Shown: positions 5,635-46,883 of the stretch, in pieces | Position numbering within the stretch: the stretch's first letter is position 1 | Layout of the letters: each line of letters opens with the position of its first letter | Virus record (IMG/VR): IMGVR_UViG_3300047408_000148 | Span: 1 to 46,883 of that record | DNA from: a virus | Length of the DNA stretch: 46,883 nucleotides | Direction: 5' to 3' (one strand) | The notes under the pieces: model-generated | Database searches by the model: none | What the model was told of the DNA's origin: nothing | What the model saw: the letters and a program-made list of their open reading frames with translations, nothing else | Made by a program: the position numbers and the translations under genes

Positions 5635-6555
5635 TTACGCGCCTGCGGTCCCGTACGACCCCATCCACGTCCAGGCACCCACGGAGAACCGATGCCGCGT
5701 AGTGAAGATGCGATTCTTCGTCCGCGGGTCAATCGCCATGGGGTCAGTCGAGATAGGGACGCGACGGTAGAACGTCAGCCCGTGCTGGGCCTTGTTCCCC
5801 GCCACCACAAACCACGCATCGTTGTCGGTCAGCCGCGGATTCACGATGAGGTTCCACGTCCGGCGCGACTTGATCGGGTTGCGGTCGTTGTCCGCCGACC
5901 CTGGTAGTCCGACGCTGTTCAGGAGCCGGTCCGCCAAGAACTCGAGAGCGGGCGGGACAATCAGGTTGAGCGAGGTGACCGGAGCCGCCAGGTGGCCGGC
6001 CTCGTCCTTCTGGTCGGTCTGCAGGTCAATCAGCGCCTGCGTGAGCGACGTCGCGGACAGGTCCGCATCGGTCGAGGGCCGGTTCTTGGCTGTGCCGCCC
6101 CCCTTCAGCACATGCGACGTGCTGAACAGGCTGACGCCGTCCGGGGTGACTTCCGAGGAGAAGCCGTTGTTCAGGACGTTGGCCGCTCGGCCTTCCTCGA
6201 CATACCGCGCCGAGAACGCGAGCCAGTCGCCAGCCCCGTTCAGGATGTTCTCGGGATCGTCCTCCAGCGCGGTCTGCGTCACCTCGAAGCCGAGGCCGTT
6301 TTCCGTGTGGGTGAAGTCCTTCGTCCAGCCCTGTCGCAGGGTGTCCATCACAAACGCATCGCCTTCCGGCTTGCTCTGGGTATCCCCAAAGGGCACGTAG
6401 GTGACGATGCGCTCGAACTTGCGGTCTGATGTCCGGATGTTGAAGTACTCCGGGTAGATCCGCACGAGCTCCTTCAGTCGATCCTTCATGATCGAGTAGA
6501 AGGTTTTGTCAATATTGTCGTAAAGATCGGGATTCGTGCCGCGTGTCTGTGCCAT
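5635..6555 (-). CDS. Major capsid protein (HK97-fold, Mu gpT-like)
   Basis: A 306-residue protein whose N-terminal part resembles capsid proteins of the Mu gpT-like HK97 group: an N-arm with DLYDNIDKTF, then FERIVTYVPFGDTQSKPEGD, which would form the E-loop region, then an alpha/beta P-domain and a C-terminal strand set ending near FTTRHRFSVGAWTWMGSYG. It follows a decoration-type protein, the usual head-operon order. There is no N-terminal delta domain or protease nearby, so assembly probably uses a separate scaffold (candidate at 28861-29703 on the other arm). The family call rests on remembered motif similarity and context. Confidence 0.85.
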   Translation of the reverse strand: MAQTRGTNPDLYDNIDKTFYSIMKDRLKELVRIYPEYFNIRTSDRKFERIVTYVPFGDTQSKPEGDAFVMDTLRQGWTKDFTHTENGLGFEVTQTALEDDPENILNGAGDWLAFSARYVEEGRAANVLNNGFSSEVTPDGVSLFSTSHVLKGGGTAKNRPSTDADLSATSLTQALIDLQTDQKDEAGHLAAPVTSLNLIVPPALEFLADRLLNSVGLPGSADNDRNPIKSRRTWNLIVNPRLTDNDAWFVVAGNKAQHGLTFYRRVPISTDPMAIDPRTKNRIFTTRHRFSVGAWTWMGSYGTAGA

Positions 6556-15063: not shown

Positions 15064-15636
15064 TCATGACGCCAGATGCTCTGCTTCGGAATCATCTAGA
15101 TGCGCCCACGACTTTCGGTTTACAATCCCGCTCACCGTGTTGCGGGCGATGCCAAACTCACGCGCCAGGCGATATTGGAGTTCACCATTGGCAGCACGGG
15201 CGCGAATCTGTCGAACCTGAAGCTCGTTCAGCTTCTGCAGACCCCACGCTCGTTTGCGACCCTTACGAACAGAGTCGAGATGGTTCTCGCGACGGGTACC
15301 GAGGAAGAGATGATCGGGGTTAACGCAGACCGTATTGTCACAGCGGTGGCAGACTTCCATGCCTTCCGGGATCGCGCCACGGCTCGCCCACCACGAGAAA
15401 CGGTGCGCCATGATGCGCGTCTGTCCGCCAACACCGAAGATTCCATAACCTCGGTCGCTGATGTAACCAACATATGCCCAGCACGGACTTTCGCCTTCGC
15501 TTTCGCCCCTCTGGACATTACCCCAAAACCGTGCGAATACGCTCGCCCGCTTAGCTGGATCGAGTGTCCACTTAGCATATTGCCAAGCAAGGGTGCGCCC
15601 TATAAGCGCTGTTATGTTAATCTCGGCTTGAGTCAC
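15064..15636 (-). CDS. HNH homing-type endonuclease with C-terminal HTH
   Basis: A 190-residue protein. Residues 36-120 are a classic phage HNH_3-type domain: FARFWGNV, CWAY..YISDRGYG.F, AHRFSWW, then the metal-binding core EVCHRCDNTVCVNPDHLFLGT. The C-terminal 60 residues (LNELQVRQIRA, YRLAREFGIARNTVSGIV) form a helix-turn-helix that would give target specificity. Such free-standing genes are mobile and often sit between phage operons. It overlaps the repressor gene upstream by 4 nt, so it is well integrated in the transcription unit. Confidence 0.9.
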   Translation of the reverse strand: MTQAEINITALIGRTLAWQYAKWTLDPAKRASVFARFWGNVQRGESEGESPCWAYVGYISDRGYGIFGVGGQTRIMAHRFSWWASRGAIPEGMEVCHRCDNTVCVNPDHLFLGTRRENHLDSVRKGRKRAWGLQKLNELQVRQIRARAANGELQYRLAREFGIARNTVSGIVNRKSWAHLDDSEAEHLAS

Positions 15637-23514: not shown

Positions 23515-23922
23515 ATGCCGTTTCCTAAAGGGAAAAAGAGTCCCAATACGCCCGGAAATCCCGCCTGGAAAAAAGGTGGGGCCAGCCCGAATCCCAAGGG
23601 ACGCCCCCCTGTCGGGATGTCCCTGGCTGACCGCTGCCGCGCCGTCGCGGGAGACGGGACCAAGCTCGCCTGGCTCTATGCCTGTGTCGCCGGGCTCGCG
23701 CCAATTGACGCCGTCGAACAGCAATTCGCCTCGAGCGGCCTGGATTTCTCCATGCGGATTCGCCAGTTCCTCAAAGGGGCCTCCGTCAGGGACCGGCTCT
23801 ATTGCGCGGCACGCCTCGAGGACCGGGCCTTCGGTCTCGTAAAGCAGGAACACGAGCATTCCGGGGAAGTGGGCATGGTGCCCGTCCGTGTCGTGCATGA
23901 ATACGAATCCCTCAGTAGCTGA
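23515..23922 (+). CDS. Terminase small subunit-like protein
   Basis: A 135-residue protein with an N-terminal PKGKKSPNTPGNPAWKKGG segment and SPNPKGRPP, the Gly/Asn/Pro/Lys motif at the start of many phage small terminases, followed by helices and a basic middle. It lies immediately upstream of the large subunit and overlaps it by 35 nt, the standard packaging order. It would recognise phage DNA and load the ATPase. The ribosome binding site is weak. Confidence 0.7.
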   Translation: MPFPKGKKSPNTPGNPAWKKGGASPNPKGRPPVGMSLADRCRAVAGDGTKLAWLYACVAGLAPIDAVEQQFASSGLDFSMRIRQFLKGASVRDRLYCAARLEDRAFGLVKQEHEHSGEVGMVPVRVVHEYESLSS

Positions 23923-25429
23923 CGAGCGCGAGGTCCGGATGCGCTGGCGCGGCGTGGTCGCAGAGTTCATGCGCGATACGACACGTATGATTGATTTTGA
24001 AGGCGCGTTTCGTGTCGGAAAGACGACCGCGGCGCTCTGGAAAGTGTTCAATTCCTGCATCGAGCACCCCGGCATCCAGTGGCTCATCTGCCGCTACTCG
24101 GACGGTGATACCCAGACCAAGCTCAAACCACCCTGGCGAGCCATCTGCCGGCAGGCCGGCGTGGCGGTCGAATGGGATTCGACCGAGATGTGTGATGTCT
24201 TCCCAGAGGTGGAGGGGAAGCGGTCGCGGGTCTATATCTTCGGCATCAAGTCACAGGACCAGACCTCCCGCTACGGCAAGCTCCGCGGCATGACCTTGGG
24301 GGGGATCTACAACGACCAGACCGAAGAACTGCCGAAGGACGTGTTCCAGGAAATGATGGGCCGGCTGTCGCAGCAGGGACATGCCCACCAACTGATCCTG
24401 ACGCCGAATCCCCCCGACGAAAATCACTGGCTCTGCTCCGAGTTTCCTGAGGCCAACAACCTCAAGGACCGGAAGTATTACTCGGCCCCGATTCATGCGA
24501 ACGCGCACAACCTCCCACCCGAAACCATACCGGGGTTGATTGCCGCGTATCCACCCTCGCACCCGAAGCACCGGTCTGCGGTGCTCGGGAAGCGCGGGTT
24601 GAATGTCATCGGCAAACCGGTCTATGGCGGGGACCCTGAAAAAGGACTGGCTCCGATGTTCGTCCGGTCGCTGCATGTGCGACCGCTGACCTACAACCCG
24701 AATCTCCCTCTCCTGACCGCGATCGATTTCGGCAAGCATCACCCCGCCGCTCTGTACTTTCAGTTCACCCCGTGGAACCAGTTGCTGTTTCTCGGGGGGC
24801 TGATGGGGCAGGACTTATACCTCGAGGACTTCGCCCCGCTCATCAAACGCTATCGCGCCGAGTGGTTCCCGCAGGCGTCCATCTATCTCGAGTGCTGCGA
24901 CCCCGCGGGCTCTCATGACAACTCGCAGGGCGTCCGCAACAACGGCATCAAGGTCCTACAGGAACACGGCATCAATCCCATCTGGAAAGAAAACAGCAAC
25001 GCGCCGGATGTGCGACTCGCGATGATCGAACGACTCGCGAGCTACATGCGCAAGCGCACGCCACAAGGTGAAGCCCTCGGCGTGGAGGCGGATGTGAATA
25101 AGTGGATGCTGATTTCACTGGACATCGCCAAGCCGTGGCCGTTTCTCGCGGACGGATTCGAGGCGGGCTATGTGTGGGACGAACACATGGTGTCCATTGG
25201 CTCGAAGCCGATCCGGAAGGCGAAGAAGGACGGTTGGTATGAACACGGGATGAACTGCGCGGAGTATGCGGAAATCAACTTCGGCGGGGCACAACCCAGT
25301 CAGCAACAAATGGAACGACAGGTGGCCGCTCGACAGCAGGCCACGCTGAGACGCGCACAACGCGACATCGACCCCTATGACCTTCGCTCGTATGGACACG
25401 CCGCACGCATGAAACGAGGAGGCTACTAA
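23888..25429 (+). CDS. terL: Terminase large subunit (ATPase/nuclease)
   Basis: A 513-residue packaging motor. Walker A is GAFRVGKTT (about 39-47), Walker B LGGIYNDQTEE (about 137-147, with the acidic pair) and the coupling motif LTPNPP (about 171). The RNase-H-fold nuclease starts with the metal Asp in LLTAIDFGKHHP (about 280) and continues to a second acidic cluster near LECCDPAG. Length and motif order are normal. The protein powers DNA translocation into the head through the portal encoded downstream. Start 23888 or the ATG 9 nt later are both possible. Confidence 0.95.
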   Translation: MSCMNTNPSVADEREVRMRWRGVVAEFMRDTTRMIDFEGAFRVGKTTAALWKVFNSCIEHPGIQWLICRYSDGDTQTKLKPPWRAICRQAGVAVEWDSTEMCDVFPEVEGKRSRVYIFGIKSQDQTSRYGKLRGMTLGGIYNDQTEELPKDVFQEMMGRLSQQGHAHQLILTPNPPDENHWLCSEFPEANNLKDRKYYSAPIHANAHNLPPETIPGLIAAYPPSHPKHRSAVLGKRGLNVIGKPVYGGDPEKGLAPMFVRSLHVRPLTYNPNLPLLTAIDFGKHHPAALYFQFTPWNQLLFLGGLMGQDLYLEDFAPLIKRYRAEWFPQASIYLECCDPAGSHDNSQGVRNNGIKVLQEHGINPIWKENSNAPDVRLAMIERLASYMRKRTPQGEALGVEADVNKWMLISLDIAKPWPFLADGFEAGYVWDEHMVSIGSKPIRKAKKDGWYEHGMNCAEYAEINFGGAQPSQQQMERQVAARQQATLRRAQRDIDPYDLRSYGHAARMKRGGY

Positions 25430-25528: not shown

Positions 25529-25660
25529 ATGTCACAGACCCGAGGCGTCATGCCCGCGTTAACCGATAACGTCCGGAAGGCACCGAAGGTCCGTCCACTC
25601 CCCATTCGGAAATATCTGCCGCCCCCGCCGGCTCCTAAAAAGAAACAGGCAGGCAGATGA
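25529..25660 (+). CDS. Very small Pro/Lys-rich protein before the portal
   Basis: A 43-residue basic peptide with a proline run (PPPPAPKKK near the end), starting 1 nt after the previous stop and overlapping the portal start by 4 nt (ATGA). These overlaps support translation. The function is unknown. Confidence 0.45.
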   Translation: MSQTRGVMPALTDNVRKAPKVRPLPIRKYLPPPPAPKKKQAGR

Positions 25661-27579
25661 CACCACCCCGCAGTCCGTTCGATGTGAAACTCTCGGATGA
25701 CCGCCGGCAGGAGTTTGCCCGCTGGCTGTCGGACGAAGTCCAGTCGGCACTGGACGCAAAGTCCGCACAGGACCGCGAGGTGGACTACTGGCATCTGTTG
25801 TATGAGCAGGGTCGAACACGGCTCGCCTCCTCTGCTCCCTGGCCGGGTGCCGCGGACCTGACCTCGTATCTCGGGACGCAGAACGTCGATGCGCTCCATG
25901 CGCGGTTGATGAAGACGATCTGGGTGGAGCCGGTCTGGACCGTGGAAGGCTTCGGTCCCGCCGCGCAGAATGCCCCGGTGGTCGAAGAACTGCACCAGTG
26001 GTGGGCGGAAGAAGAACAACTCCAGTCGGTGCTGGACAAGCTCGGCCTCATCTCATTGATCGAACCACGCGGACTCCTCGAGGTGCGGGAAGGCACGCAG
26101 ACGCGGACGGTCCGGAAGACCATCAGCGCCGCGATCGAGATGGACCCCATGGGGGGGTTGGTCTATGACGAGACCGGTGCGCCCAAACTGATGCGCGACC
26201 CCGGTGGGACGATCCTGCCGGCGCAGCCCGGCATGGCGGCGGCGGAGACGGTCGTGGATGTCGTGGAACCTGTCAGGACGGGTCCGCAGTATCGGGTGAT
26301 TCCGTATCGGCACTCGGTGATCCTACCGGGCCATGCGATGCACAAGGACGACATCTGGGGCTACGGGAAACTGTTTCGCCAGCGCATTCCCGACATTCAG
26401 AAACTGGCCGATGAAGGGGTGTATGACAAGGATGCGGTCGAATCGCTCAACCGGGTCGGGGACACGGACCCGGACCCCGCCCTCCAGCGAGCGAAGCAAG
26501 GGGTTGCCCCGCAAGAAGGCCCGACCGCGGAAAAAGAACTCTGGGAAGTGCTTGTGCTCTCGGATCTGGACGGTCGTGGCGAACGCTGGTATCTCGCCAC
26601 CCTCCACATTGGTCATCGTGTACTGCTCCGATTGCAGTATGACGACTTGGATCGGTCCCGTTTCGTTCCCGTCATCTTATTCCCCCGTCCAGATCGAGCG
26701 ACCGAAGGGTTTTCCTGTATCGGCCATAAGCTGATCACGACCATCGAGGAGCACACCGCGATTCGCAACATGCGGGCGGACCGCGAAGCGATGATCGTGC
26801 AGGCTCCTATCAAGCGGCTCACCGGGGCCTTGTGGGACCCGCTCGAGCAACCCTTCGGCCCGTCCGCGGTCATCGACGTCCGCGACATGCGAGAAGTGGA
26901 ACCCTTCCAGGTGCCGGATCTGCCGGCGACGATCATCCAGTGGGAGCAGACCTGTGAGCGCACCGCCGAAAAGCTCATGGGCGTCAATGACATCGCCTCC
27001 GGGCAGACCCTGAACGAAACGAAAACGTTAGGGGAAGTTCAGATGGCGACGGAGCAATCCTTCGTCCGCATGGATCTGGTTATCCGTCGATTCCAGGAGT
27101 CGATGGAGGACTTGTTCCAGATTCGTCATGCGATCCGAAAGCGGATGCTGGCGGAACATCCGGAAGGCGTGGACGCGCCACAGTCGGTCATGACGGGCCT
27201 GGAAGCCCGAGGCGCGTCGATTGATGGCGGCAAGGTCACCGCGCAGATGCTGGAGGGAACGTTCCGTGGGAAACCCCGCGGGTCGGTCGAAACGGCCGAT
27301 CCGAAAGCCCTCAGGAACGACCTGAACCAGCTCCTGCAAGTCCTGCCGACGTTCCTGCAGCTCTCCCCGATGGTGGCGCAGTTCTTCGGGCCGCAAGCGG
27401 TCAGAGCCTTACTCGACCAGATTGTGCGGACGTATCGCATTCCCAATCGGCAGGCGTTTTTAGGTGGACCGGCGCAGCAGATGATGATGGGACCGGGGAT
27501 GCCGCCGGGACCACCGACCATGGGGGGCCCGCCTCCGTTGCCGTTACCCGGGCCGATGGCGGCAACCCCGCCGCAATAG
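25657..27579 (+). CDS. Portal protein
   Basis: A 640-residue portal in the correct place after the large terminase. N-terminal REVDYWHLLYEQGR and APWPGAADLTSYLG, then VDALHARLMKTIW, are typical of large podovirus/siphovirus portals. The middle has a long helical and beta crown region with ASGQTLNETKTLGEVQMATEQS, close to the channel-forming segment of P22-type portals. The last 40 residues are Pro/Gly/Met-rich and likely disordered. It forms the 12-fold ring through which DNA enters and leaves the head. Confidence 0.9.
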   Translation: MTPPRSPFDVKLSDDRRQEFARWLSDEVQSALDAKSAQDREVDYWHLLYEQGRTRLASSAPWPGAADLTSYLGTQNVDALHARLMKTIWVEPVWTVEGFGPAAQNAPVVEELHQWWAEEEQLQSVLDKLGLISLIEPRGLLEVREGTQTRTVRKTISAAIEMDPMGGLVYDETGAPKLMRDPGGTILPAQPGMAAAETVVDVVEPVRTGPQYRVIPYRHSVILPGHAMHKDDIWGYGKLFRQRIPDIQKLADEGVYDKDAVESLNRVGDTDPDPALQRAKQGVAPQEGPTAEKELWEVLVLSDLDGRGERWYLATLHIGHRVLLRLQYDDLDRSRFVPVILFPRPDRATEGFSCIGHKLITTIEEHTAIRNMRADREAMIVQAPIKRLTGALWDPLEQPFGPSAVIDVRDMREVEPFQVPDLPATIIQWEQTCERTAEKLMGVNDIASGQTLNETKTLGEVQMATEQSFVRMDLVIRRFQESMEDLFQIRHAIRKRMLAEHPEGVDAPQSVMTGLEARGASIDGGKVTAQMLEGTFRGKPRGSVETADPKALRNDLNQLLQVLPTFLQLSPMVAQFFGPQAVRALLDQIVRTYRIPNRQAFLGGPAQQMMMGPGMPPGPPTMGGPPPLPLPGPMAATPPQ

Positions 27580-27611: not shown

Positions 27612-28268
27612 GTGTGGGGCGCGTCCATTCCCAAGGATGCGCCGGTGGATGGTCCGAACGAGCGGTGCATTGAGGTGCCGCTGGCGCGGGAGGTCATGCA
27701 GTTGACCATACCGGGTCGTGTGCTCGATGTGGGCTGCGCGGTCAATGGACATCTCCAGGACGACCTCACCGCCGCTGTCTTTCACCTGACCCAGAACATC
27801 GGGTCAGAAACCGTCTATGCCCATAAGCGCGTTCCGCTGTCCTACCTCTCCGGGGATGTGCGAGACCTGTCCTATTTTGTCGGGGCCGCGTTTGACCGGG
27901 TCGTGTGTGTGTCTACCTTGGAGCATGTCGGCTTCAACAACGAGTCGTATCTGGGACCCGACGAAGACTGCCCGGACACCATGCTGAAAGGCTTCCGGGA
28001 ATTGTGTCGGGTGACGCGAGCGCAGTTGCTCGTGACGGTGCCCTACTCCGAGGAGGCGTGGCGCTGCGACAAATGGCGGTATCTCCAGACGCCAACGTTG
28101 GGCCGCATGGTGTGGATTGCTGCGAACTGCGGATTCCGAACGGACCTCCGGTTCTATGCGAAGTGTGACGGCGGTTGGTATGGCGGGGAACCCGAACCCG
28201 TCGAGGCGAGTCTGACGGGATTTCCGCAGAGTGTCAACGCGATTGCCTGTCTCCTGTGTACCCAGTAA
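27612..28268 (+). CDS. SAM-dependent methyltransferase (class I)
   Basis: A 218-residue Rossmann-fold methyltransferase: motif I VLDVGCA (about 37-43), an acidic loop near SGDVRDL, and the post-motif FDRVVCVSTLEHVG. It resembles small-molecule or sugar methyltransferases rather than DNA methylases, since no DPPY or target-recognition part is seen. The annotated GTG start is preceded by an in-frame CTG at 27591 with AGGAG 8 nt upstream, which could be the true start and would add 7 residues. It is the first of several sugar-type enzymes in this arm. Confidence 0.75.
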   Translation: MWGASIPKDAPVDGPNERCIEVPLAREVMQLTIPGRVLDVGCAVNGHLQDDLTAAVFHLTQNIGSETVYAHKRVPLSYLSGDVRDLSYFVGAAFDRVVCVSTLEHVGFNNESYLGPDEDCPDTMLKGFRELCRVTRAQLLVTVPYSEEAWRCDKWRYLQTPTLGRMVWIAANCGFRTDLRFYAKCDGGWYGGEPEPVEASLTGFPQSVNAIACLLCTQ

Positions 28269-28561
28269 TGGCGAGTGAACAAGAAGACCTCGATCAGTTT
28301 GTGCAGTCAGCCGGCTGGCTGCGCTTTTGTCGGCATGCGGAGGAGGAATGGAACGACCGGTTCCAGCAGCATGTCCGCACCGCCATCAATGACGCCGATG
28401 ATGTGGCGGCCCTGAGAAAGCTCCAACAGGTGACCGTCGCGAAAGATGCCGTGGAGCGGTTGCTGAAATGGCCGAAGGAACGTTTACAGCAGTTGGACCT
28501 GATGACCGGGTCTTTTGTGGACCCGATGGAACAACCCTTATCGCGGAGAGGACGGTTGTGA
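28268..28561 (+). CDS. Small helical protein of unknown function
   Basis: A 97-residue helical protein starting MASEQEDLDQFVQSAGW, with a charged, coiled-coil-prone middle. Its ATG overlaps the methyltransferase stop, and its own stop overlaps the next start (GTGA), so the genes are translationally linked. No family was recognised. Confidence 0.65.
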   Translation: MASEQEDLDQFVQSAGWLRFCRHAEEEWNDRFQQHVRTAINDADDVAALRKLQQVTVAKDAVERLLKWPKERLQQLDLMTGSFVDPMEQPLSRRGRL

Positions 28562-28860
28562 TTACGCCACTCGGTGACCGGATTCTAATTCGCCCTGAAC
28601 CACTCCCGACCGAAACCGAGAGCGGTCTGCACCTGGTGGAGCATCGCAAGCCCGAGACGATGGGTGAAGTGGTCACGGTCCCGGAACGGATCGCCACCGA
28701 TTGTCCGGAGTGCGGGTCGCACATCTTCCATGTGCCGGCGGTGAAGCCGGGGGATACGGTCGTGTTCTCGTGGACGAGTGGACAGGAACTCTTGATTGAT
28801 GACCAGCGGTATCTGTTGATGCGCGAGTCCGACGTACTCGCCGTCCTTGAAGGAGTGTAA
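28558..28860 (+). CDS. GroES-like co-chaperonin
   Basis: A 100-residue protein of Cpn10 length and order: ITPLGDRILIRPE (the N-terminal strand of GroES), a mobile loop (TETESGLHLV), MGEVVTV, VKPGDTVVFSWTSG, and the C-terminal LMRESDVLAVLE. The GroES roof hairpin is replaced by a segment with CPECGSH that could bind metal. Phage GroES-like proteins such as T4 gp31 adapt host GroEL for capsid folding, so a role in folding the major capsid protein is likely. I started it at the GTG overlapping the upstream stop. Confidence 0.85.
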   Translation: MITPLGDRILIRPEPLPTETESGLHLVEHRKPETMGEVVTVPERIATDCPECGSHIFHVPAVKPGDTVVFSWTSGQELLIDDQRYLLMRESDVLAVLEGV

Positions 28861-29703
28861 ATGGCAGACCTCGAAGCCCCCGACCCACCACCCGAGCCGA
28901 CACCCGAACCGGAACCGGTTGCCGCGATCCCCGCCGACCCGATGGAGGCGGAACCCGAAGGCACCACCGAGGTGGAAGGGGCGAAGCATGTCCCGCTGGG
29001 GCACCTGATTAATGAACGCCGGGAAAAGGCCGCGCTGAAACAGAAGGCGGACCAGTTCGATCAACTCGCCGGCTACGTCAATCAGGTCAAGCCCTATATC
29101 GAATTTCTGCAGGCGAACCCCAACCTGATCAGCCAGACCCGGCAGGAGCCCACTCCGGTCACCACGACACAACCGGTGGATGAAGAATCCGCCGAGCTCG
29201 CGAGGACGCTGGACCTCTATACGTCGGACGGGCAACCCGATGTCAAGCGAGCGCAGAAGCTGATCGATCGGGTGGACAAGATTGCCGGGACCCGTGCGCA
29301 AGCCGAGGTGAAGCCCCTGCAGGACAGCACGCAGCGGGAACGGGCGCAGTACAGCTATCAGCGAGCACTGGTGACCAAGACCCCGGATGGTCGAGCGCCA
29401 GACCGCGCCATCCTGGATGAACTCTGGCGGCGGACCCCGGACCATATCAAGGCCACCGAGGAAGGGGCCTCAGGCATCTGGGCGCTGGCGTTGGGATTCT
29501 CCGAGGGACAGGGTCGCACCCCAGTCCCACCGCCGGCCAGTCCCGTGCTGCACACGGAACCGCCGGGAGGCCGGACCCCGAATCGTGCGCCGCTGTCGGG
29601 GCTGGAGGAGAAGATTGCGAAGATTCGCGGTCTGAGTGAGAAGGACTATCACGAACGCACCAAGGGCTACACGCCCGGTCGCGTCAATGTGTTGGAGGAC
29701 TAG
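28861..29703 (+). CDS. Scaffold protein candidate
   Basis: A 280-residue, strongly acidic N-terminus (Pro/Glu-rich, about 1-45), then long charged helices (about 45-110 and 125-200) and a Pro/Gly-rich linker before a short C-terminal helix with a basic face (EEKIAKIRGLSEKDYH). These are the features of internal head scaffolds. It is between portal/GroES and the sugar module. No scaffold motif is conserved across phages, so this is inference from composition and place. Confidence 0.55.
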   Translation: MADLEAPDPPPEPTPEPEPVAAIPADPMEAEPEGTTEVEGAKHVPLGHLINERREKAALKQKADQFDQLAGYVNQVKPYIEFLQANPNLISQTRQEPTPVTTTQPVDEESAELARTLDLYTSDGQPDVKRAQKLIDRVDKIAGTRAQAEVKPLQDSTQRERAQYSYQRALVTKTPDGRAPDRAILDELWRRTPDHIKATEEGASGIWALALGFSEGQGRTPVPPPASPVLHTEPPGGRTPNRAPLSGLEEKIAKIRGLSEKDYHERTKGYTPGRVNVLED

Positions 29704-30212
29704 TGGCACCCAAAACAGAAGCGAAGAAGAAGCCCCGCGTCTCCGTGCTCGAGCGCCGGCTGCAAAATCCCTTCGGGGAACCATCGTCACCGATTGACCT
29801 CACCGACCCGGCGATGGTCGCGAGAGGCTTCAATAAGGCGGTCGGGTCCCAGCAGATTTACAAGGCGAAGCGCAACGGCTGGGATTTCGTCACCCCCGAC
29901 ATGATTGCGGATGTCGATCAGGCCGGCGGGTATCGACCCTCGACGGATGGACAGCGGATGGTCCGTGGCGAGCGGGAAGAAGAAGTCCTGATGTACATGC
30001 CCAAGTCGGACCGCGAGCAGATCGAGTTGGCGAAGGCGAAGAAGAATGTCCGTGACATGCAGATGGGACGGCAGAAAGAAGCCGTGCTGCAGGCGGCGGC
30101 GACCCAATTCGGCGGACAGGCGTCGGACTATTTGAACGGGCGCATTGTCGGCACGGTCACCGACCAGATCGAGCGGATTCATTCGGACGCCAACCCGGAT
30201 GAGCATCTGTAA
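29703..30212 (+). CDS. Structural-operon protein of unknown function
   Basis: A 169-residue protein with a GTG start overlapping the previous stop by 1 nt. It has a very basic N-terminus (KTEAKKKPRV), a central GWDFVTPDMIADVDQAGGY segment and a C-terminal helix. Similar size and position suggest a head or connector component, but no family was recognised. Confidence 0.6.
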   Translation: MAPKTEAKKKPRVSVLERRLQNPFGEPSSPIDLTDPAMVARGFNKAVGSQQIYKAKRNGWDFVTPDMIADVDQAGGYRPSTDGQRMVRGEREEEVLMYMPKSDREQIELAKAKKNVRDMQMGRQKEAVLQAAATQFGGQASDYLNGRIVGTVTDQIERIHSDANPDEHL

Positions 30213-31278
30213 TCTGGATCATTTCGCGGAGTCCTATTGGGACCCGCGGCGGCATGTCCTGGTGGGCGGGGCGTTCGATCCGCTCCACGAAGGACATCTG
30301 GCGTATTTCGAGGAGGCGCGGAAGCTGGGACCTTTGGTATGTGCGGTTAGCCCAGACCGGACCGTGGCAGCGAAAGGAAAGATTCCGTGCCTCCCGGAAG
30401 CTACGAGACTCAAGGTATTGAATGCGTGCTCGCTGGTGGAGCATGTGATTCTGGCCGCGGATAAGGCCGCCGTCATTCGGGCGTTGAAGCCGAAGGCGTA
30501 TGTCATCGGCTCGGACTGGCTGACCGCCTTTCCCGACGAGGAGAAGCAAGCCTGCCTCGATGTCACCACGCGTGTCGTGTTTGCCAGTTGTCGCGAAAAC
30601 TCCTCCACCGCGCTCCTGGCTGACTACGAGCGCAGACGCAACGCTAGGAAGCTCTACGCATTTGAACAGTTCATCCAGCAGCAGCAACCAGCCGCGAAGC
30701 CGTGGGAACCGGTCATTGACTACTCATGGGAGGCGCGGAAGGTGGTCGAGGGACCGCACGCGCAGTTGATTAAGGATGCGTTTGCACCGAGACACGCACT
30801 TGATGCCGGCTGTGGACGACACGGGATTCTCGTTCGTATGCTGCGCAATCTAGGCGTGGATGCCGTTGGCTTTGATGCACAAGCGGAATGCGTAGAGGAC
30901 CAGAAATATCGCTGGCGCTACATGCTGTATGAAGACGATCTGCTCACTGCCGAACGTGAAGAAAGCGGAGAACCGTGCGACCTCGTCATCTGCCGCGAAG
31001 TCTTAGAGCACCTGACCGTCCGCCAGTTGGCCGTCGCGGTGCGCAACCTCGTGACGCTGTCCAGTAAATATGTCTATGTCACGACGAGGTTCACAACAGG
31101 CCCACATCTGCTGGACGTAGACGGCTCTGACTCGCTCGACCCCACACACATCAGCATGTTGAATCAGGATCTGCTCAGAACGCTGTTTGTGCTGGAGGGC
31201 TGTACACGCCGTGCTGACCTCGAGCAGAAGCTGGACTGGATGAAGAAATCCCGCGTGCTGGTCTACCAAGTGCCATGA
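30199..31278 (+). CDS. Bifunctional nucleotidyltransferase / methyltransferase fusion
   Basis: A 359-residue protein with two domains. Residues of about 18-130 are a cytidylyltransferase-like nucleotidyltransferase with GGAFDPLHEGHL (23-34, the GxFDxxHxGH motif) and a later conserved GSDW. Residues of about 195-320 are a Rossmann methyltransferase with LDAGCG (about 201-206) and ICREVLEHL. I started it at ATG 30199, where the sequence becomes family-like. Such nucleotidyltransferases activate a phosphorylated sugar, alcohol or lipid head group. The fusion could activate and methylate the same small molecule. It heads the sugar module; the substrate is unknown. Confidence 0.8.
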   Translation: MSICNLDHFAESYWDPRRHVLVGGAFDPLHEGHLAYFEEARKLGPLVCAVSPDRTVAAKGKIPCLPEATRLKVLNACSLVEHVILAADKAAVIRALKPKAYVIGSDWLTAFPDEEKQACLDVTTRVVFASCRENSSTALLADYERRRNARKLYAFEQFIQQQQPAAKPWEPVIDYSWEARKVVEGPHAQLIKDAFAPRHALDAGCGRHGILVRMLRNLGVDAVGFDAQAECVEDQKYRWRYMLYEDDLLTAEREESGEPCDLVICREVLEHLTVRQLAVAVRNLVTLSSKYVYVTTRFTTGPHLLDVDGSDSLDPTHISMLNQDLLRTLFVLEGCTRRADLEQKLDWMKKSRVLVYQVP

Positions 31279-31388
31279 CGTGGACTGATTACTTCTACTG
31301 CTTCCTGCTGGTGGTGTTCCAGGTGCTGGCCGAGGGCTGGCTGGACGAATGGCGGGATCGTCGCCATGCGAGGCGCAACCGTGATTGA
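31275..31388 (+). CDS. Very small membrane protein
   Basis: A 37-residue peptide with one hydrophobic helix (about 6-21) and a basic Arg-rich tail, overlapping the preceding stop (ATGA) and the next gene's start. The linkage suggests translation; the role is unknown. Confidence 0.45.
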   Translation: MTWTDYFYCFLLVVFQVLAEGWLDEWRDRRHARRNRD

Positions 31389-32118
31389 CGCCGTGCTCTC
31401 GTATCACATGAATCCGCAGACGTGCGGGGTCAGTAAATTCAACCATGTGCTGGCGAAGCGATTGGGCGTTTCGGTCGGACCGCTGCACAGCATGTGTATC
31501 AACTACGAGCATCCGCTGGTGTCGATTAAGCCGTCCGAGATTCACCCAGAAGAACTCTTTCGCTCGTGGCACACCTATGACCTCCTGCTGCATGACCGCT
31601 CGCTGAATTCGGAGAGCGACCTCGTGCAATCCGCCGGTCGCGTCTGGTATGCCGATGAGCTCGGCTGTCCGTCCACCATCGACGGCAACCCACACCGCGG
31701 GGCCTATCGCGTGCTGGTCTTTGGGATGGCGCACAAGCTGAACCTGCCGCACTTTGAGAAGTTGAAAGGGCAACTCGATGAAGCACACCCGGACTACACG
31801 GTCGAACTCTCGACAGCGGTCCATGAAGGCACCCCGTGGGACGAGGCGCTTACGGAGTCTGTCGCTGCCATGCGGCGCATCTACGGTGACAAGCTCAGAG
31901 TGCTTGGTTTCCTCGGTGATGACGCTCTCGCCAAAACACTTCAAGAAGTTGATGCGGTTGCGGCGTATTTCGTTCCTGCTCTAAGAGCGAACAATACGTC
32001 CTATTGGGCGGCGGTCGAAGCAGGCAAAACCATCTACACCAACCGGGACGAGCACTCCCCGAAAGAGACTGACCCGCCCGCGTCATGGGACAAACTCGTG
32101 GAGTTAATCCGTGCGTGA
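31366..32118 (+). CDS. Glycosyltransferase-like protein (GT4-type fold)
   Basis: A 250-residue protein. The N-terminus has VLSYHMNPQTCGVSKFNHVLAK, like the first strand and glycine loop of GT4-like transferases, and the C-terminal part has FLGDDALAKTLQEVDAVAAYFVPALRANNTSYWAAVEAGKTIY (in pieces), like the donor-binding region. It is shorter than usual GT4 enzymes (about 350-400 residues), so it may be a reduced or divergent version. It would transfer an activated sugar, probably the nonulosonate or a sugar built by its neighbours. Confidence 0.6.
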   Translation: MRGATVIDAVLSYHMNPQTCGVSKFNHVLAKRLGVSVGPLHSMCINYEHPLVSIKPSEIHPEELFRSWHTYDLLLHDRSLNSESDLVQSAGRVWYADELGCPSTIDGNPHRGAYRVLVFGMAHKLNLPHFEKLKGQLDEAHPDYTVELSTAVHEGTPWDEALTESVAAMRRIYGDKLRVLGFLGDDALAKTLQEVDAVAAYFVPALRANNTSYWAAVEAGKTIYTNRDEHSPKETDPPASWDKLVELIRA

Positions 32119-33169
32119 ACTGATCATCGACGAGCGTCGGATTGCGGACGACGAGCCCTGCTATGTGGTGGCGGAACTCGGTCACAACCATGGCGGATCG
32201 TTCGACACCGCAAAGGGCATGATCCATGCGGCGGCAGATTCTGGCGCACACGCCGTGAAACTCCAGAAGCGGGACAATCAGACCCTCTACAGTAAAGCCC
32301 TGCTGGATCAGGTCTACGACAACGAGAACAGCTACGGCCCCACCTATGGCGCGCACCGGGAAGCCTTAGAGCTCTCCGCGGAGGATTTACAGAAGCTCCA
32401 CGCACTGGCTCGGTGGCGTCAGGTAGCGTGCTTTGCCACGGCGTTCGATGAAGCGTCCGCGGATGTCCTGGCGGAACTCGGCTATCCTGCGTTCAAACTC
32501 GCCTCTGGCGCGTTGACGGACCTCGCCCTGCTCAAGTATGTCGGCCAGTTTCACAAGCCGATCATCCTCTCCACCGGGGGTGGAGCCTACTGCCATGTCG
32601 ATGAGGCCGTGAATGTCCTGACCGGCACTGGGGCACCCTTTGCCTTGCTCCATGCGACCGCGGCGTATCCCTGCCAGTTCACCGAGTTGAACCTGAAGTG
32701 CATTCCGGTGATGCGGGAACGGTATCCGGACGTAGTCATTGGCTGGTCCGCGCACGTCCACAATATCTCGATGATGCTGCAGGCCCACGCCTACGGAGCC
32801 AGAATCCTCGAATGCCATTTCACGTTGAACCGCTCGAGCAAGGGAACGGACCATGCCTTCAGCCTCGAACCCGCCACGCTCCGGAAACTCTGCAAAGACC
32901 TGGAGCGAGCGCATCAGGCGGCGGGCGATGGCGTCAAGGTCTACTACGAATCAGAGCGCAAGCCTATCTCGAAAATGCGGCGCCGTCATACCGCTGACGG
33001 ATTGCGCATCACAGGAGCCCTCGATGGTCTTACTGGAGAAACTACAGCAACGGATTCTGGAGCGCGAGTGGGGACAGGAAGTCTTCATTGTGGAGTCCCC
33101 GAACTATCTCGGCAAGATTCTCCACATGAGAAAAGGCACGAAAGGCGGTCTGCAATACCACGTCGATAA
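32111..33169 (+). CDS. neuB: Sialic-acid-synthase family (NeuB-like nonulosonate synthase)
   Basis: A 352-residue protein whose first 300 residues are a NeuB TIM barrel: VVAELGHNHGG near the start, AVKLQKR, FKLASGALTD, ILSTGG, LHATAAYPC, GWSAHVHNI and the conserved ECHFTLNRSSKGTDHAFSLEP. It would condense phosphoenolpyruvate with an N-acyl sugar to a nonulosonate. It lacks the C-terminal antifreeze/SAF domain that closes the active site in most NeuB proteins. Residues past about 305 lie over the cupin gene in another frame and look unstructured. Start GTG 32111 overlaps the upstream stop by 8 nt. Which sugar it makes cannot be told. Confidence 0.85.
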   Translation: MRELIIDERRIADDEPCYVVAELGHNHGGSFDTAKGMIHAAADSGAHAVKLQKRDNQTLYSKALLDQVYDNENSYGPTYGAHREALELSAEDLQKLHALARWRQVACFATAFDEASADVLAELGYPAFKLASGALTDLALLKYVGQFHKPIILSTGGGAYCHVDEAVNVLTGTGAPFALLHATAAYPCQFTELNLKCIPVMRERYPDVVIGWSAHVHNISMMLQAHAYGARILECHFTLNRSSKGTDHAFSLEPATLRKLCKDLERAHQAAGDGVKVYYESERKPISKMRRRHTADGLRITGALDGLTGETTATDSGARVGTGSLHCGVPELSRQDSPHEKRHERRSAIPRR

Positions 33170-33413
33170 GGATGAGGCGTTCTATCTCATCGAGGGCGCG
33201 GCGGTGGTCCGGACAGACGCAGGACAGGGGCTGATCGAACTCACCATGAATCCCGGCGAAGGCTTTCGGATTCCACCTGGGGCGATTCATCAGGTCGAGG
33301 CGGTCAGCGACTGCACGCTGATTGAGTGGAGCACACCACATTACGACGACCGCGTGCATGTGGAATCACGGTATGGACTCCCGGAGGCCGGCGGGTTGCC
33401 GACTACGAAATGA
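33024..33413 (+). CDS. Cupin (type II phosphomannose-isomerase-like)
   Basis: A 129-residue single cupin: GQEVFIVESPNYLGKILHM, the metal motif GLQYHVDKDEAFYLIEG (H-x-D-x-E type with Glu), then NPGEGFRIPPGAIHQVEAV for the second motif. The family resembles PMI-type and sugar-metabolising cupins that often accompany neuB clusters. AGGAG lies 6 nt before the ATG. It begins inside the last 146 nt of the NeuB frame, so the two overlap in different frames. The reaction is not known. Confidence 0.8.
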   Translation: MVLLEKLQQRILEREWGQEVFIVESPNYLGKILHMRKGTKGGLQYHVDKDEAFYLIEGAAVVRTDAGQGLIELTMNPGEGFRIPPGAIHQVEAVSDCTLIEWSTPHYDDRVHVESRYGLPEAGGLPTTK

Positions 33414-33541
33414 CACAACTCGGCTTCATTGTACTCTTCGCGATTCTCTGGGTGGCCTCCGTCATCGGGTTGGCGGTGGCGCTTGTCGCGTGGCCCGATG
33501 AACTCGGTAGTTGCCCGAGCCGGTATCGGAGGGGCTGGTGA
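33410..33541 (+). CDS. Small membrane protein inside the sugar module
   Basis: A 43-residue peptide with one transmembrane helix (about 4-28) and a Cys/Arg-rich tail, overlapping the cupin stop (ATGA) and the NeuA start (GTGA). Its conserved coupling suggests it is real. It could anchor the synthesis enzymes at the membrane, but this is speculative. Confidence 0.5.
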   Translation: MTQLGFIVLFAILWVASVIGLAVALVAWPDELGSCPSRYRRGW

Positions 33542-34284
33542 ACATTGTGGCCCTGATTCCCGCTCGCGGTGGCAGCAAGCGCATCCCGCGTAAGAACGTC
33601 AAGCTGCTGGGTGGCAAGCCGCTGATTCAGTGGACGATTGACGCGGCCAAAGCCAGCGGTGTGTTTTTTACCGTTATTGTGTCAACCGACGACGAGGACA
33701 CCAAGCGTGTCGCGCTAGATGCCGGTGCCGGGTTCACGATGCGCCCTGACGGCATCAGCGGTGATGCATCACCAGACATTTACTGGGTGCGTGATGCGAT
33801 GGAACGACAACAGCGCAGCTTTATAAGGGCTGATGCTTTTATGATTCTGCGGCCAACGTCGCCATTCCGAACGGCCGTCACGATCCGGCGAGCGACGGAA
33901 CAGTTTGCGTATGGCAAGTGCTCATCGATCCGCGCCGTTGAGCCTGTCAGGCAACATCCTGGGAAGATGTGGCAGGAGCGTTACGGCAGCATGACTCCTC
34001 TAATTGCGGATGAATGGCCTGCCGCCTCGCACGAGGCTGGACTCACGACACGCATTCCATGGCACTCGCAACCGACGCAATCGCTTCCGAAGGTCTACGT
34101 CCAGAACTCCAGTCTGGAAATCGCGTGGACGTGGTGTGTGACCGTATTCGACAGCATCAGCGGCCCCAAGGTCGCGCCCTTCTTTACTGAGGAGTGGGAA
34201 GGCTTTTCCATTGACTATCCGGAGGACTGGGACCGTGCGGAACGCCATGTGGCCGATCTACAAGCGGCTGCTTCAACGCAGTAA
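33538..34284 (+). CDS. neuA: CMP-nonulosonate synthetase (NeuA-like cytidylyltransferase)
   Basis: A 248-residue nucleotidyltransferase with the NeuA/CMP-KDO synthetase signature: ALIPARGGSKRIPRKN at the start (phosphate-binding loop), GGKPLIQWTI, IVSTDDEDTKRVA, MRPDGISGD, ILRPTSPFR, and a C-terminal FSIDYPEDW. I started it at the GTG overlapping the upstream stop. It would activate the nonulosonate made by the NeuB homologue to its CMP form for a transferase. The nonulosonate specificity is inferred from the adjacent neuB-like gene. Confidence 0.85.
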   Translation: MNIVALIPARGGSKRIPRKNVKLLGGKPLIQWTIDAAKASGVFFTVIVSTDDEDTKRVALDAGAGFTMRPDGISGDASPDIYWVRDAMERQQRSFIRADAFMILRPTSPFRTAVTIRRATEQFAYGKCSSIRAVEPVRQHPGKMWQERYGSMTPLIADEWPAASHEAGLTTRIPWHSQPTQSLPKVYVQNSSLEIAWTWCVTVFDSISGPKVAPFFTEEWEGFSIDYPEDWDRAERHVADLQAAASTQ

Positions 34285-45676: not shown

Positions 45677-46507
45677 TTATCGTCTCGGATCGTCCACGTC
45701 CTGCGAAGCCCCAAGGGACCGCCGGAAGTAGGTTCTGGCGAAGGTCAAGGCCGTCCCACCCTTCTGCCGCGTGGCCTGCAGATAGCGCGTCACATAGCCG
45801 AGAAACTTTTGCAGTTGCCGGTCTGACGCTTGGTCATCCCGCCGCAATTTCTCCAAGAGGTGCGCGGCATAATGCACCGCCGCCCGATGGTAAGGACGAA
45901 GATCCCATCGGGTCTGGTCATGGAGAATCACCGGTCCCCCGGACGATGGATTACTTACCGTGGTGATCGAAAAGGGTTCCGAGGTGCTGTTGCTCAGCAC
46001 AGGGGGAAATGCCACATAGGGCACCAACACGGTCGCCGTCGCGCTTGAGCCGGTCGAGAGCGTCGGCCACAACCCGAAATAGAGCGCGGCCCCATCCGGA
46101 CGCAGATAGAACAGCCGCGGTAACTGCTTCACGCTCGAGGCCACCGTGGAACTGCGCCAGCCGGGTTCTTCCCGCTCCAACCACGCCACATCGACCTGTC
46201 GGAGGTCTTTCCCGCTCACGACGGTTTCTTGACTCGACGCATCGACATACCGCACCGCGGGTGATTGCTTGGCCGCGAGCCGCACGAAATCATTCGCGAG
46301 CGTGGTGCTATTGAGGTCGGTTTCCAGCGTGCCGCCGGTCCAGACAATGCTGGACACCCGGACGTAGCACTCGGTCAGGTCGGCAAACTCCGCGATACCT
46401 TCATTGATAGCCGCGGCCCGGCGGTCATCGGTAAAGAGCTGCGTGGAATCGTCCGACCCCAATTCCTGGGTCAGTAGCCGCTGCCAGAGCGAACTGAACT
46501 GGGTCAT
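45677..46507 (-). CDS. Head-tail adaptor protein (P22 gp4-like role)
   Basis: A 276-residue protein starting MTQFSSLWQRLL at 46507, overlapping the previous stop by 4 nt. The N-terminus (LTDDRRAAAINEGIAEFADLTECY, in pieces) is typical of podovirus/siphovirus adaptor proteins that form a ring under the portal. The middle is beta-rich and the C-terminus helical (HYAAHLLEKLRRDDQASDRQLQKFLGY). It precedes the tail-nozzle candidate. A longer frame runs upstream but lies over another gene. Confidence 0.75.
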   Translation of the reverse strand: MTQFSSLWQRLLTQELGSDDSTQLFTDDRRAAAINEGIAEFADLTECYVRVSSIVWTGGTLETDLNSTTLANDFVRLAAKQSPAVRYVDASSQETVVSGKDLRQVDVAWLEREEPGWRSSTVASSVKQLPRLFYLRPDGAALYFGLWPTLSTGSSATATVLVPYVAFPPVLSNSTSEPFSITTVSNPSSGGPVILHDQTRWDLRPYHRAAVHYAAHLLEKLRRDDQASDRQLQKFLGYVTRYLQATRQKGGTALTFARTYFRRSLGASQDVDDPRR

Positions 46508-46883
46508 TGCACCCCCAACATTGTCAGGGTGGACAGACTTGCGGGTGTGGCCCCACCACCCGCCGCGACCTTGTAGGCCACCGCGACATTGCCGGTATTC
46601 CCCGCCGCGCTCCACGTCCCAGCCACCGTATAGGAGCCTGCCGAGGTCTCGATTCGGTACTCCATGACGTGACTGACCGTATCGCCAGATTGATCGTTCT
46701 CTGGCCCCTCAACAGATGGCCCGGTCGGACTATTGCTAGCTGATTGCGACTCCTGGTAACACCCCGCGACGATCACAGACCCGGCAGCAATGCTGTAACT
46801 CGGCGTAGCCCAAGCTGCTGTGGCGGCTGCCTCAGTCGGTCCTGTGGGTGTCCCATCCACTGGACTTGAGGTCGCCACACCTG
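46504..46883 (-). CDS. Virion-associated beta-rich protein, C-terminal part (gene starts at 455 across the join)
   Basis: This is the C-terminal 84 codons plus the 127-nt repeat of the gene that begins at 455 on the circle. The frame is continuous across the junction and ends at 46504 in a 4-nt overlap with the adaptor start. The product part is Ser/Gly/Ala-rich and beta-forming. A start inside the window at 46878 would be an artefact of the linear cut. Confidence 0.8.
   Translation of the reverse strand, partial: GVATSSPVDGTPTGPTEAAATAAWATPSYSIAAGSVIVAGCYQESQSASNSPTGPSVEGPENDQSGDTVSHVMEYRIETSAGSYTVAGTWSAAGNTGNVAVAYKVAAGGGATPASLSTLTMLGVQ
46757..46883. repeat. Right copy of 127-bp terminal direct repeat (circle closure)
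   Basis: Identical to 1-127. See the left copy. Removing one copy gives a 46,756-bp circle with one continuous open frame across the join. Confidence 0.95.

Follow-up and report, generated by a model that had tools for sequence, protein, structure and literature searches.

The usual view of phage-encoded lids such as T4 gp31 is that their differences from GroES make room for large capsid proteins. The window analysed here, an uncultivated phage record of 46,883 bases, carries among its head genes a short gene for a GroES-like protein with the segment CPECGSH in its roof, and the question that it raises is what such a lid serves and what its altered roof is for. Our main reading, to which we give a probability of roughly 0.78, is that the protein is a phage lid for host GroEL that serves virion assembly and whose outer roof is rapidly remodelled.

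The ends of the window (46000–46883 and 1–1500) adjoin one another in a sister record (32540–33390 and 33571 onward), so the window probably represents a permuted, near-complete genome, whose full length would be about 47–49 kb.

Identification of the co-chaperonin gene

The gene lies at 28558..28860 on the + strand, with a GTG start, 100 codons and a TAA stop. Its first four bases (GTGA) are shared with the end of the preceding gene, stop codon included, and the next gene begins at 28861, directly after the TAA. An in-frame ATG at 28468, which would add 30 residues, was rejected as the start because the added codons are read in a different frame from the upstream gene that they overlap and differ strongly from those of the sister phage L002, with no sign of conservation; GTG 28558 is thus the better start.

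The product matches Pfam Cpn10 (PF00166) with an E value of 1.2e-14 and 54.5 bits against a cut-off of 21.1, over positions 2–92 of the 93 in the profile, and it matches the co-chaperonin GroES family PHROG 3188 at E 2e-17. Cpn10 is also matched by all eight members of the phage group (below) that were scanned. Together with the matches to NCBIfam GroES models, these scores bear out the earlier proposal, made from the letters of the window, of a phage co-chaperonin of the GroES type, and they place the protein inside the Cpn10 family. The best NCBIfam GroES score, 53.8 bits, does not reach the curated cut-off of 96, as expected for a divergent viral member; judged from its sequence, the product is a Cpn10 family member and not an ortholog of cellular GroES. 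The same sequence-only reading considered phage co-chaperonins uncommon, and this does not hold: at E ≤ 0.001 the matches include more than 50 viral models, and GroES is among the core genes of the HTVC023P-type pelagiphages (PMC9599517).

Head module and genome context

The co-chaperonin gene sits within a run of head genes that are all on the + strand. Profile matches identify the terminase large subunit (23888..25429) and the portal protein (SU10_portal, 25657..27579), and these are followed by a methyltransferase-like gene with weak Pfam matches (27612..28268) and by a conserved 97-aa protein ending in SRRGRL (28268..28561), which is the upstream neighbour of the co-chaperonin in most group members. 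Directly downstream is a conserved gene (28861..29703) that we call scaffold-like from its position and composition and that has no family match in Pfam or PHROG; next comes a conserved head-module gene of 169 aa with a weak PHROG 'major head protein' match (29703..30212).

Searches of viral contigs recovered this arrangement in a group of 13 distinct uncultivated phages, counting the window and L002 together; the other members are L003, L004, L005, L008, L009, L011, L013, L109, L112, L115, L119 and L120. The order terminase, portal, (methyltransferase), small protein, co-chaperonin, scaffold-like gene, 169-aa gene, nucleotidyltransferase/methyltransferase and NeuB is kept wherever the contigs reach, with the small protein or the methyltransferase undetected in occasional members, and the co-chaperonin is followed directly by the scaffold-like gene in all 13 phages where the contig extends. 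Neither the window nor either of two related records, which may be incomplete, yielded a GroEL gene, so the partner of the lid must be the GroEL of the host.

Phage records gave only 10 close co-chaperonin relatives, at 30–39% identity and several of them without annotation, and no matches to the portal and scaffold-like gene queries. A first scan of cellular genomes found no prophage relatives, and a second picked up ordinary cellular GroES proteins and an extended paralog but no member of the phage group. A divergent second Cpn10 paralog (in L050–L107, for example L051:1170–1541 and L103:3001–3348) has a long acidic roof loop with a conserved EPW, and its hosts include Ignavibacteria, Bacteroidota, Marinimicrobia, Calditrichota, Planctomycetota and others.

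Two other features of the genome may be noted. Right after the head genes, at 30145–34284 on the + strand, is a sugar-activation island comprising an RfaE/HldE-like nucleotidyltransferase–methyltransferase fusion, a 250-aa gene, a NeuB-family synthase (E 2e-66) and a cytidylyltransferase (CTP_transf_3, E 8e-22); most group members keep NeuB and the genes around it, which suggests that these phages make nonulosonic (sialic-like) acids. At 15064–15636 on the – strand lies an HNH endonuclease (HNH_3, E 5e-13), probably a homing endonuclease.

Predicted fold and mobile loop

An AlphaFold2 model, built with 24 sequences from the window and the fetched viral loci, has a mean pLDDT of 87.9 and the GroES beta-barrel fold. 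The comparison with Cpn10 templates that had been suggested as a check gave Z 13.7 to Thermus Cpn10 (1wnr; rmsd 2.2 over 86), 11.6 to E. coli GroES (1aon) and 9.0–9.5 to T4 gp31 (1g31), and the next structural matches are alcohol-dehydrogenase-type enzymes at Z about 7 (range 5–7).

The mobile loop comprises residues 16–33 (LPTETESGLHLVEHRKPE, 28603..28656, + strand), as placed by alignment and model, and it is the block of lowest pLDDT (70). At residues 22–26 its sequence reads SGLHL, a hydrophobic G-L-x-L where GroES carries G-I-V-L. Leu fills the first position of the tripeptide in every one of the 8 aligned members, and a hydrophobic residue the third; the middle one is His here where GroES has Val, a point that counts against our main reading.

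In whole-length fold and in its length of 100 aa the protein resembles the cellular co-chaperonins of E. coli (1aon), Thermus (1wnr) and M. tuberculosis (1p3h), with which it has in common the G-[IL]-x-L mobile loop, the GDxV strand and the C-terminal [LM].[RS]E.D[IVL]L segment. It differs from them in the CPECGSH of its roof, in a roof segment longer than that of E. coli GroES and in the location of its gene in a head module without groEL. With T4 gp31 and the PHROG 3188 proteins it shares phage encoding and the expected use of host GroEL on virion proteins; gp31 nevertheless has a longer mobile loop and is only 12% identical to the phage lid, at a structural Z of 9.0 (1g31).

The roof hairpin and its cysteine pair

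The roof segment, residues 43–61 (28684..28740, + strand), is predicted to be a beta hairpin. CPECGSH occupies residues 49–55 (28702..28722, + strand) between the strands GEVVTV and GDTVVF, which is the position of the GroES roof hairpin (GNGRILENGE), and residues 42–64 (PERIATDCPECGSHIFHVPAVKP) align to GNGRILENGEVKPLDVKV of E. coli GroES. The predicted strands are 45–48 and 55–58, with the CPECG turn at the tip, which would place Cys49 and Cys52 at the hairpin tip and leave His55 and the nearby His58 as possible further ligands. The earlier suggestion that the hairpin is replaced by the CPECGSH segment therefore goes too far: the Cys segment is real and is in the roof, but the model keeps the hairpin, with a sequence unlike that of GroES. 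The roof has been modified, not lost, and probably retains its hairpin form.

Comparison with L002 indicates that this roof is maintained. The two co-chaperonin genes differ by 17 synonymous changes and one amino-acid change (V93L); five of the silent differences fall in the roof, in codons 43, 46, 48, 49 and 51, and the one in codon 49 exchanges TGT and TGC, both Cys. Since the roof changes are silent only, even in a Cys codon, the pattern of substitutions indicates that the Cys-bearing roof is under selection and is not an assembly error. A roof with at least two Cys is also rare: it occurs in 3 of 193 unique Cpn10s (28 viral and 165 cellular, the cellular set being a non-random one drawn partly by a motif-biased scan and partly evenly from genomes of three phyla), and all three belong to this phage group.

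These observations bear on the idea that the roof is simply a low-constraint loop whose two Cys serve no particular function. Ten of the 13 members lack two roof Cys, one lacks the roof altogether, and roof-deleted co-chaperonins such as gp31 are functional, all of which would fit such a loop; the silent-only changes between the window and L002, the restriction of the paired roof Cys to this group and the conservation of another roof type in most members (below) speak the other way, and we consider the idea unlikely.

Roof variants in the phage group

With the roof removed, the lid core of the window is 59–64% identical to that of every other member, and on this conserved core the roof is hypervariable, from 11 to 68 residues long. 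The Cys hairpin is found in the window and L002. L008 has a Cys-rich insert with six Cys, including CPCREC, and L009 has no roof. Most members carry a long insert that begins with HPRKAEA and ends with LLRDLV, an insert type that is itself conserved; L115 has a CC pair within its long insert, and the long insert of L109 is a different one. In the model of L004 the insert forms a helical hairpin (helices 50–62 and 70–86; block pLDDT about 80–90) on an otherwise ordinary Cpn10, and the roof of most relatives is accordingly predicted to be a helical hairpin. What is new here is that the roof is an exchangeable module on a lid that is otherwise conserved across a single lineage of phages.

A tree of the lid core gave no resolution and the portal tree resolved some of the relatives without placing the window, and neither fixes the order of the roof changes; midpoint rooting makes the long, probably helical roof the likelier ancestral state. 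Outside the group, one viral co-chaperonin (L029:1553–1987) has a roof insert of about 45 residues, so that viruses seem to have enlarged the roof on more than one occasion.

One explanation for this diversity is that the roof touches a variable partner outside the cage, be it another assembly protein of the phage, a factor of the host or one of its defences, and that the roofs record an arms race or co-adaptation. No part of the lid lies farther out than the roof, and the roof alone has been swapped for unrelated modules (Cys hairpin, Cys-rich insert, predicted helical hairpin or none) in one syntenic lineage; the next gene downstream, the scaffold-like gene, is likewise fast-evolving, at 33–43% identity in the group. 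Such a partner is hypothetical, however, and variation in an exposed loop could also stem from weak constraint, although the window roof is under purifying selection. An outside partner is thus possible, at clearly less than even odds.

The likely capsid protein and cage size

The sequence-only reading connected the altered roof with a changed cage volume and a large capsid protein. T4 gp31 is the precedent for a roof change that would enlarge or open the folding cage: it has no roof loops and is required for the folding of gp23, of about 56 kDa (PMC6318259). L009 is the one relative that resembles gp31 in having no roof. The window roof, in contrast, is present and modified, and is still a hairpin in the model.

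The likely major capsid protein, a possible chaperonin client, is a 306-aa product encoded at 5635..6555 on the – strand, which matches Pfam Phage_capsid_4 with 56.1 bits against a cut-off of 27. It is well below gp23 in size. A homolog was found in 9 of the 13 related records, the four without one being short fragments, and identity to the window protein is 97% in the sister phage and 75–82% in six relatives; the two most distant records have 68% and 58%. The six relatives at 75–82% have completely different roofs. A small and nearly constant likely capsid protein combined with wholesale change of the roof argues against a roof tuned to capsid size; that proposal is disfavoured, and we regard cage enlargement for a large capsid protein as improbable in this phage.

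The position of the capsid gene itself varies. In the window and its sister about 24 kb separate it from the other head genes, whose strand it does not share, and in six relatives it is on the same strand as the co-chaperonin and 7–10 kb downstream of it, so that it has been inverted or relocated between the two sets.

A capsid protein of 306 aa also fits an ordinary GroEL/GroES cage, which counts against our main reading in that it leaves unexplained the need of the phage for a lid of its own. Virion proteins other than the capsid protein may be clients.

What the cysteine pair might do

The CPECG turn looks like one half of a zinc site, and the chain has no second Cys pair. The roof searched by itself gave sub-significant matches to ribosomal eL42/L44e (E 0.44) and RNA polymerase subunit P (E 1.1), and zinc-finger and zinc-knuckle proteins are among its matches, all at E 0.4 or worse; the best-ranked matches among PDB sequences were T-cell-receptor chains, which we judged to be chance. 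From the sequence, binding of zinc or another metal by the roof Cys is plausible, if somewhat short of an even chance. With one CxxC, each chain would supply half of a Cys4 site, and the seven halves of a ring could not all be paired; a symmetric site would therefore have to include His, and could be built from Cys49, Cys52 and either His55 or His58, of the same or the adjacent subunit.

A disulphide or redox switch in place of a metal site is the other role to be weighed, as CxxC is also the motif of thiol-disulphide proteins. The cytoplasm is reducing, though, CPxCG turns are typical of zinc knuckles, and the sub-significant matches of the roof (E 0.44 and 1.1) include zinc-finger and zinc-knuckle proteins; we think a disulphide or redox role very improbable.

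Two other proteins of related fold or function carry Cys outside the common core, at other positions. Alcohol dehydrogenases have a Cys-bearing loop, the structural zinc lobe, on the same GroES-like fold, but this lobe contains four Cys and lies after the GDxV strand; CPECGSH lies before it, and the two are not homologous in position. The H. pylori co-chaperonin HspA also has Cys and His residues outside the core; there they form a C-terminal extension that sequesters nickel (PMC7840056), and in the window they are in the roof.

Proposed action of the lid

By analogy with the Cpn10 family, the phage protein most likely forms a seven-membered ring that would dock on host GroEL through the SGLHL of its mobile loop and close the chamber around phage virion proteins, the presumed clients, from the same head-gene cluster. 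The outward-facing roof at the top of the dome is the part that the lineage remodels, in this phage as a short predicted hairpin with a CPECG turn. Here the two Cys would most likely stabilise seven hairpin tips around the dome opening, perhaps through zinc and His. More tentatively, and with rather more doubt than confidence, we suggest that a replaceable roof module tunes lid opening, ring stability or an outside partner while the capsid protein stays unchanged: in the window it would be a collar of seven metal-bound CPECGSH segments around the dome opening, in which Cys49 and Cys52 are joined by a His from their own subunit or the adjacent one, and in most relatives a predicted crown of fourteen helices.

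The small, nearly constant likely capsid protein and the swapped roofs mean that roof evolution in phage co-chaperonins is separable from capsid size. The group is a set of natural roof variants on one conserved core, and as such it is ready-made for asking what the roof of GroES does.
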